From: Luteitalea sp.
GTDB lineage: Bacteria > Acidobacteriota > Vicinamibacteria > Vicinamibacterales > Vicinamibacteraceae
DNA length: 50,170 nucleotides
Reading direction: 5' to 3'
Assembly: GCA_009377605.1 (NCBI GenBank)
Contig: WHTT01000049.1
Location: 1-50,170 of the forward strand
Part shown: positions 12,452-26,468 of the stretch, one piece after another
How the letters are laid out: every line of letters starts with the position of its first letter
How positions within the stretch are numbered: the first letter of the stretch is position 1
Notes under the pieces: model-generated
Databases searched by the model: none
Seen by the model: the letters and a program-made list of their open reading frames with translations, nothing else
What the model was told of the DNA's origin: nothing
Program-made: the position numbers and the translations under genes

Positions 12452-12846
12452 CGACCGCGCGTGCCCGCTACGTCGGGCCACCCCGCGCTATCGCACCCCC
12501 GATCTCCATTTCGTGCCGCCTCAGCGACCTCAGCTTCGGCGTTGGCAACTGCGACTGTTTCGCGAAACCGGTGCAGATTGTCCACGTCGACCACTTGCCG
12601 CAACACGTCGACGAATTGCATCAGGTTCTTCGACTTGCTCCCGCACCAGAACGTGATAGCCGAGCGGTCATCGTCGCGCGGCGGAACGAAATGGAGATCG
12701 GGATGCGATTTGAGATACACCCTCAAACCGTAGTTGGTCATCGGAAGACCAGTGCGGCTGCTGACGTAGTCGGCGGTCACGATTTCGGCGTGGGGGCGCG
12801 GCGTCGTCGCGTCAGCCAGTTCCTCGGTGTAAATGTTGATCCTCAC
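12448..12846 (-). CDS. Hypothetical protein, 132 aa
   Basis: The start is GTG 12846, coupled as GTGA to the stop of the GapR-like gene. N-terminal residues [27 protein letters not shown] and the segment [17 protein letters not shown] look like a conserved phage beta domain that I have seen in proteins of unknown function; [15 protein letters not shown] forms a helix. The C-terminal 30 residues are low complexity. No activity can be named. Confidence 0.6.
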
Positions 12847-13100
12847 AGCAGCCAATCCATTCCGAGCGCATCCAGGTACGTCTCCAAGATCGCCTGGTGC
12901 TCCTTCAGCTTCTCGCGGTCCTGCTTACGCAGTGCCACGACGCGGCGAAGCGCCTTGGTGTCGAAGCCGTTGCCCTTGACTTCTTGGTAGACTTCGCGGA
13001 TGTCGTCCGCGGCTGCCTTCTTTTCCTCCTCCAGCCGTTCGACACGCTCGACGAACGCCTTGATCTGCTCTTTGCTGTTGTGGCCTGCGGTTTCGGTCAT
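12843..13100 (-). CDS. gapR: GapR-like (DUF2312) nucleoid-associated protein
   Basis: The 85-residue sequence matches the alphaproteobacterial GapR/DUF2312 family almost end to end: [41 protein letters not shown] and [14 protein letters not shown]. Known members form tetramers that encircle overtwisted DNA and stimulate type II topoisomerases ahead of replication and transcription; Caulobacter GapR is essential. A phage copy could protect or remodel phage DNA or compete with the host protein. It lies in the replication operon with ATGA couplings. Its presence is the best single pointer to an alphaproteobacterial host. Confidence 0.93.
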
Positions 13101-19045: not shown

Positions 19046-19091
19046 GTCAACTGGAGTCCGACAAAATCCTACACAAAATCGTCGAGGCAAT

Positions 19092-21072: not shown

Positions 21073-21177
21073 ATGATGGTTGGAAAGTTGAACTGGGCTG
21101 CGATTCGTTACCCGCGCAGCAGAGTTGATTGGGCGTTCGGGGACAACGCTTGTGAGTTTGATGTTGGTTCGTGGTGA
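21073..21177 (+). CDS. Small protein of 34 aa, coupled to HTH gene
   Basis: ATG 21073 is preceded by the strong purine-rich site AGGAAAGGAAAAG, and the frame ends in TGA overlapping the next ATG (TGATG at 21175-21179). The product starts MMVGKLNWAAIRYPRSRVDW. It could be a leader peptide that controls the downstream gene or a small functional protein. Confidence 0.5.
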   Translation: MMVGKLNWAAIRYPRSRVDWAFGDNACEFDVGSW

Positions 21178-21710
21178 TGGCTAAAACCCCCGAATGGCGT
21201 TTCGACCAAGAGGCGTGGGACATGATCATGGCGGCCGCGACGGACCGGCGCGTCATGCGGAAAGGCGATCGGCACCGGAAGGAGTCGAATGAGAAGCGGC
21301 AGCGGTCGAGGGACGCCAACCTGGCGCGGCGACAGCGCGAGGCAGTCTCGACCGCAACGGCGGAACGGCACGCGGCTGCTCGGGCGCGGTGGCTCAAAGG
21401 CCGCGACCTGGCCACCAACAACCAGGGGCGCCTTCTGAGGCTGATGGAGCCGGGTGGGTGGTACGGCGCGCGCGACCTGTACGAGGCCGCTGGCATGCTC
21501 AAGGATCAAGCGGCCATAGCGCTGGTGCACATGCGGGAGAAGGGCTGGTTGACCCGCACCCGCAACCCGGCTCACGACGGGGCGCAGCGGACGCCTGGTG
21601 AGATTATGGCGCGGCAGGCGGCTGGCGTAGGGGAGGAGCCGGTGTGGCTGTACGGGCTTCTGGAGGGCGGCATAGCCGCAAAAGAAAAAAGCCGCCAAGG
21701 CGGCGGCTGA
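21177..21710 (+). CDS. Winged-helix domain protein, 177 aa
   Basis: I use ATG 21177, coupled to the small upstream gene, over the in-frame GTGs at 21171 and 21174. The N-terminal half is a highly charged helix (KGDRHRKESNEKRQRSRDAN...). Residues about 85-130 form a winged helix: GRLLRLMEPGGWYGARDLYE, DQAAIALVHMREKGWLTRTR. It likely binds DNA, perhaps near the adjacent iterons. Its 3' end contains the terminator of the opposing operon. Confidence 0.65.
   Translation: MAKTPEWRFDQEAWDMIMAAATDRRVMRKGDRHRKESNEKRQRSRDANLARRQREAVSTATAERHAAARARWLKGRDLATNNQGRLLRLMEPGGWYGARDLYEAAGMLKDQAAIALVHMREKGWLTRTRNPAHDGAQRTPGEIMARQAAGVGEEPVWLYGLLEGGIAAKEKSRQGGG
21680..21704 (-). terminator. Rho-independent terminator of the 21.7-24.2 kb minus-strand operon
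   Basis: On the minus strand GCCGCC (21704-21699) and GGCGGC (21696-21691) form a GC hairpin followed directly by TTTTTTCTTTT (to 21680). It lies inside the 3' end of the convergent plus-strand gene. Confidence 0.8.
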
Positions 21711-22928: not shown

Positions 22929-22992
22929 CTGTCTCTCCGTTCTGTCTCAAGATGTGCTTTGTAGCACGTTTCGGCTTGGCTCATCAGCGGCC
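22926..22992 (-). repeat. 67-bp leader repeat with hairpin, copy 1
   Basis: It matches 23583-23649 closely over 67 bp. On the minus strand it runs GGCCGCTGA...AAGCCGAAAC, a GTGCTAC/AAAGCAC hairpin, then TTGAGACAGAACGGAGAGACAG and ATG 22928. It supplies the ribosome site of the 143-residue gene. Confidence 0.85.
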
Positions 22993-23035
22993 GGAAGCCA
23001 TCCCGGCCGGACGGCGCTTGGGGCGCCGTTTCGCC
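22929..23035. other. Gene-free spacer with GC hairpin
   Basis: Apart from the leader repeat this stretch holds ACGGCGC (23011-23017) and GCGCCGT (23023-23029), a 7-bp stem with a five-base loop, and CCGGCC repeats. No U-tract follows on either strand, so it could be a leader or weak pause structure. Confidence 0.4.
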
Positions 23036-23188
23036 TCAAATACTGAATTTGTAAGGGAATGGTGGAGCCCAGGGGCAAGCGCGCCCCGAGCGCAGGGCGC
23101 ATATGTTTGCGATCATCCAATGCGCATCATCCCATGTATGCCGCCGCAGATATCGGTTCAGCAGGGCGGTTTGTTCGCGATTCGTCAT
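23036..23188 (-). CDS. Hypothetical small protein, 50 aa
   Basis: ATG 23188 follows a GATAGGAG ribosome site and the GGATACTGAGAC element, so the longer frame upstream is not used. The product is MTNREQTALLNRYLRRHTWDDA..., basic and helical, ending PFPYKFSI. Function unknown. Confidence 0.5.
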   Translation of the reverse strand: MTNREQTALLNRYLRRHTWDDAHWMIANICALRSGRACPWAPPFPYKFSI

Positions 23189-23239
23189 GTGTCTGCTCCT
23201 ATCTGTCTCAGTATCCAACAAGGAAGGCGCGCGGCTAGG

Positions 23240-23428
23240 TTAGGGCGCGTCCACAACGATGATCTCGACGTGACGAAAGCCGTTGTCCCTGACCTCAATC
23301 AGCGTGGCTTGCGTCGAGACTTTGTAGGCGTTCCATGTGGCGACATACTCACGGGCGGCGGTTTCCGATGCGCGGCCGGTGCGCAGCATGTGATTCGCTT
23401 GGTCGTAGGTCATGTCGGTGAGATGCAT
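23240..23428 (-). CDS. Hypothetical protein, 62 aa
   Basis: ATG 23428 has an AAGGGA site upstream and the GAATACTGAGGC element before it. The product has a helix (YDQANHMLRTGRASETAAREYVATW) and C-terminal strands (TQATLIEVRDN, RHVEIIVV). No family recognised. Confidence 0.55.
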   Translation of the reverse strand: MHLTDMTYDQANHMLRTGRASETAAREYVATWNAYKVSTQATLIEVRDNGFRHVEIIVVDAP

Positions 23429-23468
23429 CGTCTTGTCCCTTCATGTCTGCGGTGATTCGCCTCAGTAT

Positions 23469-23528
23469 TCAGCGAGGAAGGCGTGCGGCTATTCGTGATA
23501 TGAGTACTAGGTCTCGGATGGTGGTCAT
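23469..23528 (-). CDS. Micro-ORF of 19 aa with strong ribosome site
   Basis: ATG 23528 is preceded by AGAAGGGACAAGACG, the same site used by the genes starting at 23428 and 24189. It encodes MTTIRDLVLISRIAARLPR. An 11-codon frame (ATG 23585 to TAG 23550) follows the second 67-bp leader just upstream. These may be leader peptides or relics of genes lost from a repeated cassette. Confidence 0.35.
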   Translation of the reverse strand: MTTIRDLVLISRIAARLPR

Positions 23529-23582
23529 CGTCTTGTCCCTTCTGTCTGTCTAGGCCGCGCATCGGCCGGGTGTCGGCGTTGT

Positions 23583-23649
23583 CATCTGTCTCTCCATTCT
23601 GTCTCAAGATGTGCTTTTAGCACGTTTCGGCTTGGCTTCGTCAGCGGCC
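23583..23649 (-). repeat. 67-bp leader repeat with hairpin, copy 2
   Basis: Copy 2 begins at the stop codon of the 23649-23837 gene and ends at ATG 23585, which opens only an 11-codon frame. It keeps the GTGCTAAAAGCAC hairpin and the GGAGAGACAG site, with a few differences from copy 1. Confidence 0.85.
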
Positions 23650-23837
23650 TAGTCGTGGCGGTAGTGGCCAATGGTGTATCCGCTGGGGTGCCTGATCTCC
23701 GTCACGCCATTACCCGTGCGGTTAGCCTCGCGGCCGTACCGATCGCGGAGGCTGCTAATCACGCGCTGGGCGCGCTCGTCGTCGCCGCTGTCGTACTCGC
23801 GGGCCTCGGTAGTGGTGAGCGTGTAGGTGGCTGTCAT
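23649..23837 (-). CDS. Hypothetical protein, 62 aa
   Basis: ATG 23837 has a GGAGAA site; the longer upstream frame lacks coding character. The product (MTATYTLTTTEAREYDSGDDERAQRVI, SLRDRYGREANRTGNGVTEIRHPSGYTIGHY) is beta-helix-beta in pattern and hydrophilic. Upstream (23838-23931) there is AT-rich CATATATACATAC, possibly a promoter. Confidence 0.55.
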   Translation of the reverse strand: MTATYTLTTTEAREYDSGDDERAQRVISSLRDRYGREANRTGNGVTEIRHPSGYTIGHYRHD

Positions 23838-23931
23838 CGTCGTTCTCCGTTGTTGGTGATGTATGTATATATGACATGACGGCGCATCCGGGCTCTGACA
23901 CAGCACCAGATCAAGGGAGGAAGGCGCGCGG

Positions 23932-24189
23932 CTAGGCGACGCGCTTGATCGGCTTAAGCGAACCGTGCCAGCGCTTGCGCGCGTCTTGTTCGGCGACGAC
24001 CTCATAAAATGAGTCGTTGACGCGGCGGTGTTCGCCGGCGAGGGGATGGTCCATTGCGCGAATCTCACTGCCGCGCATGTTGCCAAACCCGGCTTCGATC
24101 AGCGCAGTACAATTCGCCGATACGGCCGCGTAGCGCTTGTCGTACAGCGCTTGAAGCTTGGCGGCGGATAGCTTGGTAAGGTCGGGCAT
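23932..24189 (-). CDS. Hypothetical protein, 85 aa
   Basis: First gene of this minus-strand operon. ATG 24189 follows AAGGGACAAGACG and the ACACTGAGACA element. The product is helical and basic (LSAAKLQALYDKRYAAVSANCTALIEAG, NDSFYEVVAEQDARKRWHG). Function unknown. Confidence 0.6.
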   Translation of the reverse strand: MPDLTKLSAAKLQALYDKRYAAVSANCTALIEAGFGNMRGSEIRAMDHPLAGEHRRVNDSFYEVVAEQDARKRWHGSLKPIKRVA

Positions 24190-24227
24190 CGTCTTGTCCC
24201 TTCGTGTCTCAGTGTGCTAGTGTCGGC

Positions 24228-24257
24228 ATTGTAGGCATACGTCGTGCGGCATGTCTA
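24228..24257 (-). promoter_or_regulatory. Candidate promoter of minus-strand operon, inside an inverted repeat
   Basis: On the minus strand TAGACA (24257-24252), an 18-base spacer and TACAAT (24233-24228) precede the gene at 24189. The site lies within the inverted repeat TTGTAGGCAT / ATGTCTACAA, so a regulator may bind there and also affect the divergent TerS gene. Confidence 0.55.
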
Positions 24258-24289
24258 CAAAATAATGTGATGACGGGAGAAATATTTTA

Positions 24290-24811
24290 GTGGCTGGTGT
24301 TTTGTCGCCGAGACACGGAATCGTGGGTGCCAGCAAGGCGCTTGGACTGACGGAAAAGCAGGCGCAATTCGTTCGCCACTTTTGCTCAGGAAGAGCAAAA
24401 GCCGAGTCTGCCCGACTCGCGGGATACGAATCTGAAAACCTGGATTCTATCTCCAGCACGCTCCTCCGACACCAGGGCGTGCTTGCCGCGATACGGGTCG
24501 AGGTGTCCCGCTTCCTGAGCACCGCGGCGCCCGGTGCGGCGCGAGTGCTCGACGAACTGGCGCACGATGAACGCGTGCCGCCTGCAGTCCGGCGCAACTG
24601 CGCTAGAGACCTGATAGGCCTTGCCGGTTGGGTACCGCCAAAGGCAGAGGGTGCCGAGTCGGCTATCGAGAAGCCTCTGACCGAACGCACGACGCACGAA
24701 CTGCACGAGCTCGTGGCCAAGCTTGAATCAGAGCTCGCCGGCCGCGCAACGCCCGTTAACGCTCAAAACGCCCATGACGCCGACACTAAGCCTTTGGCTT
24801 GGCTAGACTAA
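24290..24811 (+). CDS. terS: Terminase small subunit
   Basis: The start is GTG 24290 with GGGAGAA upstream. Residues 18-75 match the terminase small subunit DNA-binding region: LTEKQAQFVRHFCSGRAKAESARLAGYE, then SSTLLRHQGVLAAIRVEVSRFL. A middle helical oligomerisation part (AARVLDELAHDERVPPAVRRNCARDLIGLAG) and a C-terminal segment (THELHELVAKLESELAG) follow. It would recognise the packaging site and load TerL. It is unusual in being about 9 kb away from terL, with the spike genes between. Confidence 0.8.
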   Translation: MAGVLSPRHGIVGASKALGLTEKQAQFVRHFCSGRAKAESARLAGYESENLDSISSTLLRHQGVLAAIRVEVSRFLSTAAPGAARVLDELAHDERVPPAVRRNCARDLIGLAGWVPPKAEGAESAIEKPLTERTTHELHELVAKLESELAGRATPVNAQNAHDADTKPLAWLD

Positions 24812-24976
24812 CGCCGCCTAGGTTAGGCGGTATCGCGGGGCTAGGTAGCATGTACGCTGCCGTATCAGCGATAAGGTATGCTACACCGGCCCTTCGGAGG
24901 CCGGCCCCGCCCCCCGGCCGGGGGCCGCGCGCGCGTTGATCCAGAGCCCGGGGGCGCTTCCGCTAATTTTGCAAAA

Positions 24977-25076
24977 TTTGAATTTCAAGGCCCATGTGTG
25001 AAAAACGACACTTTCTGTCGAATTACTTTGAATTTCAAGGCCCATGCGCGAAAAACGACACTTTCTGTCGGATTAT
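24977..25076. repeat. Tandem direct repeat, 2 x 50 bp
   Basis: Copy 1 is 24977-25026 and copy 2 is 25027-25076, matching at 46 of 50 positions. Each holds CGACA/TGTCG, a 5-bp stem with a five-base loop. The array ends 11 bp before the -35 box of the first small-RNA promoter, so it could be a regulator-binding site. Confidence 0.9.
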
Positions 25077-25087
25077 GAGTATGACGC

Positions 25088-25117
25088 TTGACAATCCAAC
25101 CTACATCTGCCTACAAA
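25088..25117 (+). promoter_or_regulatory. Candidate promoter of small RNA 1
   Basis: A consensus TTGACA (25088-25093), an 18-base spacer and TACAAA (25112-25117). No gene with a ribosome site starts downstream, so the transcript is probably non-coding. Confidence 0.6.
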
Positions 25118-25123
25118 TCCGAC

Positions 25124-25209
25124 GTTGGGTTAGCCCCGTAAGGGATTCGCCCCCGACGCCGGCCGGGGCGGTACTGTCGCTCAGCGGTTCACTTGCCGCC
25201 CTCTTTTTC
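25124..25209 (+). ncRNA. Candidate small RNA 1, about 86 nt
   Basis: From a likely start near 25124 the transcript would end at GGGCGG (25166-25171) paired with CCGCCC (25196-25201) followed by TCTTTTTC, a rho-independent terminator with an inner CGC/GCG stem. It shares CCCCGACGCCGG and a pyrimidine-TTTTCAG end with small RNA 2. Start and function are inferred. Confidence 0.45.
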
Positions 25210-25461
25210 AGGAATTGGCGAATAGGCCGGACCTGCCTCTGCCACTGATCGGTATGCAATCGGCCGCTCCGACCGGGGAACAAAACCAAGACCGGGAGAG
25301 TTGATCGCCTCCAAGGATGGGACAATGGCCCCGGCCGTTTAGGTCAACGCGTGGCCACGCGGAAATGCTGGCTAACTGGCCCACTGATAGTTCGGTTGAT
25401 GGCGGGTGCTCCGTGAAACCCGGAGAGTATGGACCGAACCCGCGTTGGCTTAATTCTCCGC

Positions 25462-25491
25462 TTGACAACACCCGTCTCAGTATCCTACATT
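25462..25491 (+). promoter_or_regulatory. Candidate promoter of small RNA 2
   Basis: TTGACA (25462-25467), 18 bases, TACATT (25486-25491). The spacer contains a copy of GTCTCAGTATCC (25474-25485), the repeated element seen in gene leaders. Confidence 0.6.
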
Positions 25492-25497
25492 CCGACT

Positions 25498-25608
25498 CGG
25501 GCCTGAAAAGCCCTTCTGTCTAGTCTCAACTGTCTCAGACTTACGGCCCCGACGCCGGTCGCCTGTATGCAATGCGTAGCACCTTGGGCGTTGGGGCCGT
25601 TCCTTTTC
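25498..25608 (+). ncRNA. Candidate small RNA 2, about 110 nt
   Basis: The predicted transcript begins with GGGC...GCCC (25499-25513) and ends with a 14-bp stem, 25543-25556 paired with 25587-25600 (one G-U pair), whose loop holds a further TATGC/GCGTA stem, then TCCTTTTC. This is the strongest hairpin of the region. It has the same order of elements as small RNA 1, suggesting related units. Confidence 0.45.
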
Positions 25609-25739
25609 AGAGATGCACCCTAAGCTCTTTGTAGCCAGTACCCGGCTTATCCGCTTTTTGACGAGCAATCTCCCGCAGCACGCATCGACCAACCAGGGGA
25701 TCGTGATCGTGGGGACTTACGGGAACACTTTCTGGCCGC

Positions 25740-25769
25740 TTGTGCAGCCACTACCGCCCGTGGTATTGT
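25740..25769 (+). promoter_or_regulatory. Candidate promoter giving a near-leaderless mRNA
   Basis: TTGTGC (25740-25745), 18 bases, TATTGT (25764-25769). Transcription would start about 25776, three bases before ATG 25779, which has no Shine-Dalgarno site. Confidence 0.45.
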
Positions 25770-25778
25770 AGGCGCGAC

Positions 25779-26468
25779 ATGCCTACGATTGCCGACATCA
25801 TCCAACAGGCCGCCGCGCAGTACGGGATCCCGCCTGAGTACCTGATGCGGGCGGCGCAGCTTGAATCGGGCATGAACCCGGCTGCCCGGAATCCCAATTC
25901 GAGCGCCGGTGGTCTTTTTCAGCAGATTGACAGCAATTGGAAACAGTATGGCCGAGGCGATAGGTTCGACCCGGTGGCCAGCGCCGACGCGGCTGCCCGG
26001 TTTTGGCGCGATAACCAGGCGGCCTACCGTAAAACCTTCGGCAGCGATCCGACCGGTGATCAATTTTATCTCATGCACCAGCAGGGCGGCCAAGGTGGCA
26101 TTAATCTGCTGCGGAATCCCACTCAGCCGGCGTCAAGCGTCGTCAGTGAAGACGCGATTCGGCTCAACGCCGGCCAACCCGGCATGACGGCCGGGGATTT
26201 CGCCAATTTGTGGACAAAGAAGTTCGGGGCGGGGACTCAGCCCGTGGGCTCGCGAGCCGCGACCGCTCCCGACGCGGCGGGGGCGCCAGGGGTGGCACCT
26301 CTGACCCCCGCCGCTCCAACTGACGGTCTCGGCCCCCTGATGGCGCAGTTGCTCTCCGCGCAACAGCCGCCCGCGGCCGAAAAGCCCCCCGAGGGCGGAA
26401 AAAAGCCGAAACGCAATGACATGGCGTCGATTTTTGCGAATGCGTCGCCGAATTTGGTGTTGGCCTAA
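25779..26468 (+). CDS. Virion-associated lytic transglycosylase-like protein
   Basis: The 229-residue product begins with a lysozyme-like SLT domain: IIQQAAAQYGIPPEYLMRAAQLESGMNP, where Glu in QLESG is the probable catalytic acid, then RNPNSSAGGLFQQIDSNW and ARFWRDNQAAYRK. The remainder is Ala/Pro-rich with a basic end. Such enzymes are carried in the virion to open peptidoglycan during DNA entry. It directly precedes the tailspikes. The start ATG 25779 is the first ATG of the domain; the longer frame is intergenic. The Ser/Gly active-site loop is complete, but activity is inferred. Confidence 0.78.
   Translation: MPTIADIIQQAAAQYGIPPEYLMRAAQLESGMNPAARNPNSSAGGLFQQIDSNWKQYGRGDRFDPVASADAAARFWRDNQAAYRKTFGSDPTGDQFYLMHQQGGQGGINLLRNPTQPASSVVSEDAIRLNAGQPGMTAGDFANLWTKKFGAGTQPVGSRAATAPDAAGAPGVAPLTPAAPTDGLGPLMAQLLSAQQPPAAEKPPEGGKKPKRNDMASIFANASPNLVLA

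Follow-up and report, generated by a model that had tools for sequence, protein, structure and literature searches.

A putative cos site and tandem promoter–hairpin units ahead of the late genes of a temperate phage

Described late-gene switches and the phage studied here

In phage lambda, transcription from the late promoter pR' by default yields a short RNA that ends at the terminator tR', and the antiterminator Q releases the late operon. The AlpA-controlled promoters of Pseudomonas aeruginosa have terminators 26–54 nt past the start and a control region from −37 to +5 that includes a loading element in the spacer between −35 and −10, and their regulator is predicted to hold a winged helix (PMC7969949). 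In the Caulobacter gene transfer agent (GTA), an alphaproteobacterial phage-type late cluster, GafZ acts similarly to AlpA: the element of the GafY/GafZ system lies between −35 and −10, downstream terminators are bypassed through the antiterminator, and the predicted structure of GafZ is unlike known antiterminators (PMC11150451). Finally, one promoter of the Gifsy-1 prophage gives both the short terminated RNA IsrK and a readthrough mRNA, and IsrK is tied to an antiterminator gene (PMC4825925).

The window analyzed here, a stretch of 50,170 nucleotides, is the whole contig of a temperate phage that encodes an integrase, a DNA polymerase, a primase and a helicase, an exonuclease, an ssDNA-binding protein, terS, a lysozyme-like gene, virion proteins, and terL. 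The sole close relative that we found, IMGVR_UViG_3300037440_000199 (hereafter REL; compared at loci L002, L005, L006, L013, and L014), is a circular permutation of the window with a DNA identity of roughly 80–90% in aligned parts. Distant relatives are prophages in the order of Chelatococcus (TerL identity 58% for L010 and 54% for L050), and two further relatives in that order, G494 and G978, have TerL proteins that are 44–46% identical. Related TerL proteins are absent from the other genomes of the bin's order, and the bin and the Chelatococcus relatives belong to different classes; the contig may have been placed in the wrong bin, or the phage may have a host other than the bin. A tblastx comparison of the entire window returned chance pieces only and was uninformative. 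Rightward genes form a block from 25.6 kb to about 48.5 kb that possibly continues into the first kilobases of the contig, since the contig is circularly permuted relative to REL. The late genes begin with a lysozyme/transglycosylase-like gene (25779–26468, + strand; PHROG matches).

Modules between terS and the lysozyme gene

The interval from terS to the lysozyme gene comprises five modules: a cos-like element (24908–24974), a 49-bp tandem repeat (24977–25075), unit A (25088–25208), a 253-bp segment, and unit B (25462–25609), which is followed by a 52-aa ORF. The first-pass annotation had treated this interval as a 967-bp structured region without a convincing protein gene. Neither part of that description survives: the interval is modular rather than one structured region, a long stretch of it folds like its shuffles, and at its right end lies an ORF that is conserved in frame in REL.

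The cos-like element sits just 3' of terS. Its first part (24908–24933; cosN-like) is a GC palindrome, CCCCCCGGCCGGGGGC, followed by GCGCGCG, and its second part (24950–24974) is GGGGGCGCTTCCGCTAATTTTGCAA, the core of which, GAGCCCGGGGGCGCTTCCGCTAATTTTG, is identical in REL and degenerate in L010. Both parts, CCCCCCGGCCGGGGGC-GCGCGCG and then GGGGGCGCTTCCGCTAATTTTGC, align in REL and, in degenerate form, in the L010 prophage of Chelatococcus; similar GC elements lie past terS in L050 (CCCCCTGGGAGGGGG) and in L055, a more distant prophage (CCCCTGGGTGGGGGG), so that four phages besides this one have a counterpart. Within the 5.4-Mb Chelatococcus genome the palindrome pattern is unique, and a class-wide search with the cos pattern at three mismatches gave, besides the window's own site, no more matches than a reversed control pattern. 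Because terS adjoins, the natural reading of 24908–24974 is a putative cosN with flanking signals. The 14-bp palindrome recorded in the first-pass annotation is present (CCCCCGGCCGGGGG, 24911–24924) and belongs to this site, which had been missed. The temperate phage PaP3 likewise has a GC-rich cos site close to its small terminase gene (PMC3488191); the PaP3 ends, GCCGGCCCCTTTCCGCGTTA, faintly resemble GGGGGCGCTTCCGCTAAT in the window, a likeness that is a lead only.

The next module, two tandem copies of a 49-nt repeat (24977–25075, +; 94% identical, spacing 50, two short dyads per copy), is peculiar to the window phage. REL has no counterpart and instead carries, between its cos-like site and its first unit, a methyltransferase-like ORF (L005 4224-5197) that reads, by eye rather than by a family search, as a DNA cytosine methyltransferase. 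This ORF has its own TACAAATCCGAC element immediately 5' of its ATG, and its mRNA is possibly leaderless. Three units, A1, A2, and B, follow it in tandem in REL, compared with two in the window. In REL, AAGGGTGTTGACAAC and portions of the 20 bases that precede it recur just 5' of both A2 and B, so the units look like tandem duplicates. The segment between units A and B (25209–25461) is also peculiar to the window, with neither a REL counterpart nor structure or coding signal, and the predicted folding of 25208–25461 is as stable as that of shuffled sequence for both strands (z −0.24 and 0.03).

This modularity bears on the proposal, made at first pass, of one large RNA, possibly cut at a processing site. 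A single ornate phage RNA of the GOLLD or ROOL kind, perhaps processed, would suit the late-region location and the many GC stems. However, nothing in the interval matches Rfam, and no such family matches at its gathering score or even with E values as high as 10; the modules are unrelated and the middle folds like shuffles, the unit bodies are 25–41% identical, the left part is replaced in REL by the methyltransferase-like ORF, and we found no conserved fold with many stems that extends across hundreds of bases. We regard such an RNA as highly improbable.

The conserved ORF at the right end (25613–25771, +; 52 aa) is the first gene past unit B, shares 85% amino acid identity with its REL counterpart, in frame, with 8/14 changes at third positions, and is the sole ORF tested within the interval with a positive coding score; it has no family match. 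Other ORFs of the interval, considered as hidden protein genes, were rejected, having no family match and negative coding scores.

On the other side of terS, the adjoining leftward cassette region contains a type II hammerhead ribozyme (22969–23036, −; Rfam RF02276, 56.4 bits) in a stretch that is 87% identical in REL; hammerheads are known between prophage genes (PMC3088659). At 23190–24293, the leftward small genes have a repeated leader (..AAGGGACAAGACGATG) and a promoter stretch in common, parts of which are repeated four to five times in REL, as if single-gene cassettes were swapped in and out. A divergent promoter beside terS (TAGACA-18-TACAAT, 24228–24257, −) lies within an inverted repeat, TGTAGRCAT..ATGYCTACA, that looks like a repressor operator, and at 19050 (−) there is a TTGACA promoter-like site 5' of the leftward gene block, as there is in REL.

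Promoters and hairpins of units A and B

P_A (TTGACA-18-TACAAA, 25088–25117, +) and P_B (TTGACA-18-TACATT, 25462–25491, +), the two TTGACA-18-TACAWW elements noted at first pass, are the only near-consensus rightward promoters in the window. With at least 10/12 consensus positions, they and the divergent promoter at 24257(−) are the only promoters on both strands of the 50-kb window, and REL has the same set plus that of one additional A unit. When the 967 bp were dinucleotide-shuffled 300 times, no TTGACA promoter arose. The P_A core is 92.5% identical to that of REL A1 and 80% to that of REL A2, while the P_B core is 82.5% identical in REL and has a like layout in L050 at 9517; the −35/−10 spacers are conserved along with the cores. 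P_A and P_B have the features of sigma-70-type promoters directly 5' of the late operon.

With transcription starts placed from the −10 elements, unit A would give a short RNA of 25124–25207 (+), in which a variable leader precedes hairpin A (25165–25202; conserved 20-nt loop and CTTTTTC tail), and unit B would give a leader or short RNA of 25498–25609 (+) with hairpin B (25543–25600), whose stem of 14 bp, including one G-U pair as originally described, carries a 30-nt loop and is followed by the T-rich tail TCCTTTTC. In both the window and REL, the hairpins begin about 40–45 nt past these starts and all copies have a T run behind them; A and B are the strongest long-loop T-tailed hairpins of the window, as their counterparts are in REL. 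Shuffling reached the 14-bp stem of hairpin B in 0/300 and 0/500 cases. Hairpin A has a 9-bp stem in the window, whereas the two REL copies have 13-bp stems and a T run; alone, the window hairpin A is not beyond chance (121/500 shuffles). The two promoter-plus-hairpin units of the first-pass annotation are nevertheless real: their anatomy is well supported and REL keeps them as a module. CCCCGACGCCGG, which had been listed as shared by both, is present in the variable leader of unit A and in the stem of unit B and is missing from the REL A units.

Conservation alternates along the units. Between orthologous units of the window and REL, promoter cores are 80–92% and hairpins 89–94% identical, whereas the intervening leaders are 25–41% identical and unequal in length; for unit A, the hairpin is 94% identical to both REL copies and the leader 25–39%. 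The three copies of loop A are identical, and loop B keeps half of its sequence (CCTGT and the 16 nt AATGCGTAGCACCTTG). A common A/B loop motif, CTGT...CACYTTG, found no support in shuffling (p 0.6–0.97). Exact-pattern scans of viral contigs gave 17 matches of the loop B 16-mer outside REL and one further A match, which we take as chance because they are without flanking stems, and the combined promoter and loop pattern had no match there. A covariance model (R1) built from two sequences was over-specific and missed L050.

It is in L050 that a distant counterpart of unit B occurs. The order there is terS, a cos-like CACCCCCTGGGAGGGGGCC, a promoter-driven ORF, TTGACA-18-TACATT, a hairpin about 40 nt past this promoter, a short hydrophobic ORF, and a tail gene. 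The hairpin has a 12-bp stem, in which 6/12 pairs differ from the window stem on both sides yet still pair, and a 32-nt loop similar to loop B (CCTGT..TGCGTA; TCCTGTT-TGTAATGCGTA aligned with TCCTGTTCGGTATTGCGTA; L050 shuffle p = 6.5e-4 against REL and 0.07 against the window copy). In L010, a TTGACA promoter is followed by a 14-bp long-loop stem 5' of a small ORF, with a dissimilar loop. In shuffles, stems of such length are rare in the first 125 nt past the start (0/500, 3/500, and 0/500). Because of the compensatory L050 stem, the similar loop, and the rarity of such stems in shuffles, we take hairpin B to be, very probably, a genuine RNA element that late leaders of these phages carry; the compensatory changes are good but not strong evidence, as they come from three sequences aligned by hand from the outer pair. 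In the more distant prophage L055 (reverse strand), hairpins with 14- and 22-bp stems lie at about 12452–12497 and 12910–12992, just 5' of ORFs in the stretch from terS to the tail gene, and leaders with long hairpins may be widespread among these phages.

The L050 hairpin lacks a T run, suggesting that hairpin B is a conserved leader element that is not always a simple terminator. The hairpins could then be 5'-leader elements of late mRNAs that affect mRNA stability, cleavage by RNase III, or translation of the small ORF, as the long hairpins of L010 and L055 just 5' of small ORFs and the compensatory stem with its similar loop would also allow. Yet the T run behind each copy in the window and REL, and the lack of an ORF directly after unit A in the window, speak against that function, which we consider unlikely.

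Possible late-gene control by antitermination

The explanation we prefer, and to which we give about an even chance, is that the interval is a packaging and late-gene control segment in which a cos site is followed by two promoter/short-leader/terminator modules that gate the late genes via antitermination. Built on the anatomy of the units, their conservation pattern, and the compensatory stem change, this model would have the host RNA polymerase initiate constitutively at P_A and P_B and halt at hairpins A and B, releasing short RNAs of about 85 and 110 nt. Once lytic growth begins, loading of a phage factor at the promoter would allow the polymerase to read through into the late genes, as modeled on the Caulobacter GTA promoter, lambda pR'-tR', and the promoters that AlpA controls. 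In agreement with this model, the only near-consensus rightward promoters of both phages are those of the units, an intrinsic-terminator-like hairpin lies shortly after the start and before the first gene in the window and REL, and in the two distant prophages L010 and L050 a long-loop stem follows a promoter and precedes a small ORF and late genes. Against it, termination does not depend on loop conservation, but loop A does not vary at all and loop B varies only in one half; moreover, the L050 hairpin has no T run, there is a single close relative, and the window hairpin A is within chance.

Could the units instead be independent genes for trans-acting sRNAs (regulators, sponges, or protein decoys), in which the variable 5' part picks the target and the conserved 3' hairpin serves as scaffold and terminator? 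Phage-derived sRNAs are known (PMC12197685), each unit has its own promoter and terminator-like end, the units are tandem paralogs with divergent bodies, and the loops are conserved as noted above. However, no seed or body is conserved, and no target complementarity emerged within the phage sequence: antisense 12-mers to the phage were within chance, except one within the two units themselves. In addition, the units sit at the head of the late operon, and the L050 counterpart of hairpin B lies 5' of an ORF without a T run. We hold this alternative to be unlikely. The conserved–variable–conserved pattern, standing as it does before a long late operon that runs rightward (the 52-aa ORF, lysozyme, virion genes, and terL), fits a gate of the lambda pR'-tR', AlpA, or GafZ type better than sRNAs acting in trans, and it weighs heavily against a single ornate RNA. 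Thus, the "new phage ncRNAs" of the first-pass annotation are conserved units, but to call them free-standing ncRNA genes goes too far; their position and conservation favor terminated leaders of the late operon.

A gate of this type needs a factor. Among the phage proteins, a search for antiterminator families gave no recognizable match, either to GafZ or as a Q-like gene; this failed profile search is weak evidence, since the predicted structure of GafZ resembles no known antiterminator. A candidate late regulator of 177 aa with a predicted winged-helix domain is encoded at 21177–21710 (+), 5' of the late genes. It is 80% identical in REL and 31–35% identical to a protein near terS in a Chelatococcus prophage, it has weak MarR-like fold matches (best E 2e-3), and it may be the antitermination factor.

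The likeness to the described systems is partial. The locus shares with lambda pR'-tR' a strong promoter, a short leader, an intrinsic-terminator-like hairpin, and a late operon next to it, and differs in having two or three tandem units rather than one and conserved long-loop hairpins. Like the AlpA promoters, it has a terminator-like element near the start and a candidate regulator with a predicted winged helix; unlike them, it has conserved loops, and no AlpA homolog was recognized. In the GafY/GafZ system the terminator consists of three 150-bp repeats and comes after the first gene (PMC11150451), whereas here the hairpins precede it. IsrK targets, in trans, the long transcript from its own promoter (PMC4825925), whereas no such pairing is conserved in the window units.

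Given the absence of a T run in L050 and the conserved loops, the units may also represent an element that acts as RNA, a leader that is processed, or short RNAs that work in trans. The HK022 put RNA provides a precedent for a leader RNA that acts on transcription, although it is unrelated in sequence to hairpin B. As a long shot, we speculate that alphaproteobacterial phages have an undescribed leader RNA motif, of which hairpin B is an instance, with a variable long stem and the conserved loop CCUGU...UGCGUA, and that this motif controls late transcription in put-like fashion by acting on a phage factor or on RNA polymerase.

If the gating model is true, the interval would provide a compact late-gene switch together with a cos site, and a named candidate regulator, for little-studied temperate phages related to alphaproteobacterial prophages. 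Conserved promoter-plus-hairpin units 5' of late operons are easily misread as ncRNA genes in their own right, and their conserved loops suggest that terminated leader RNAs may do more than halt the polymerase.
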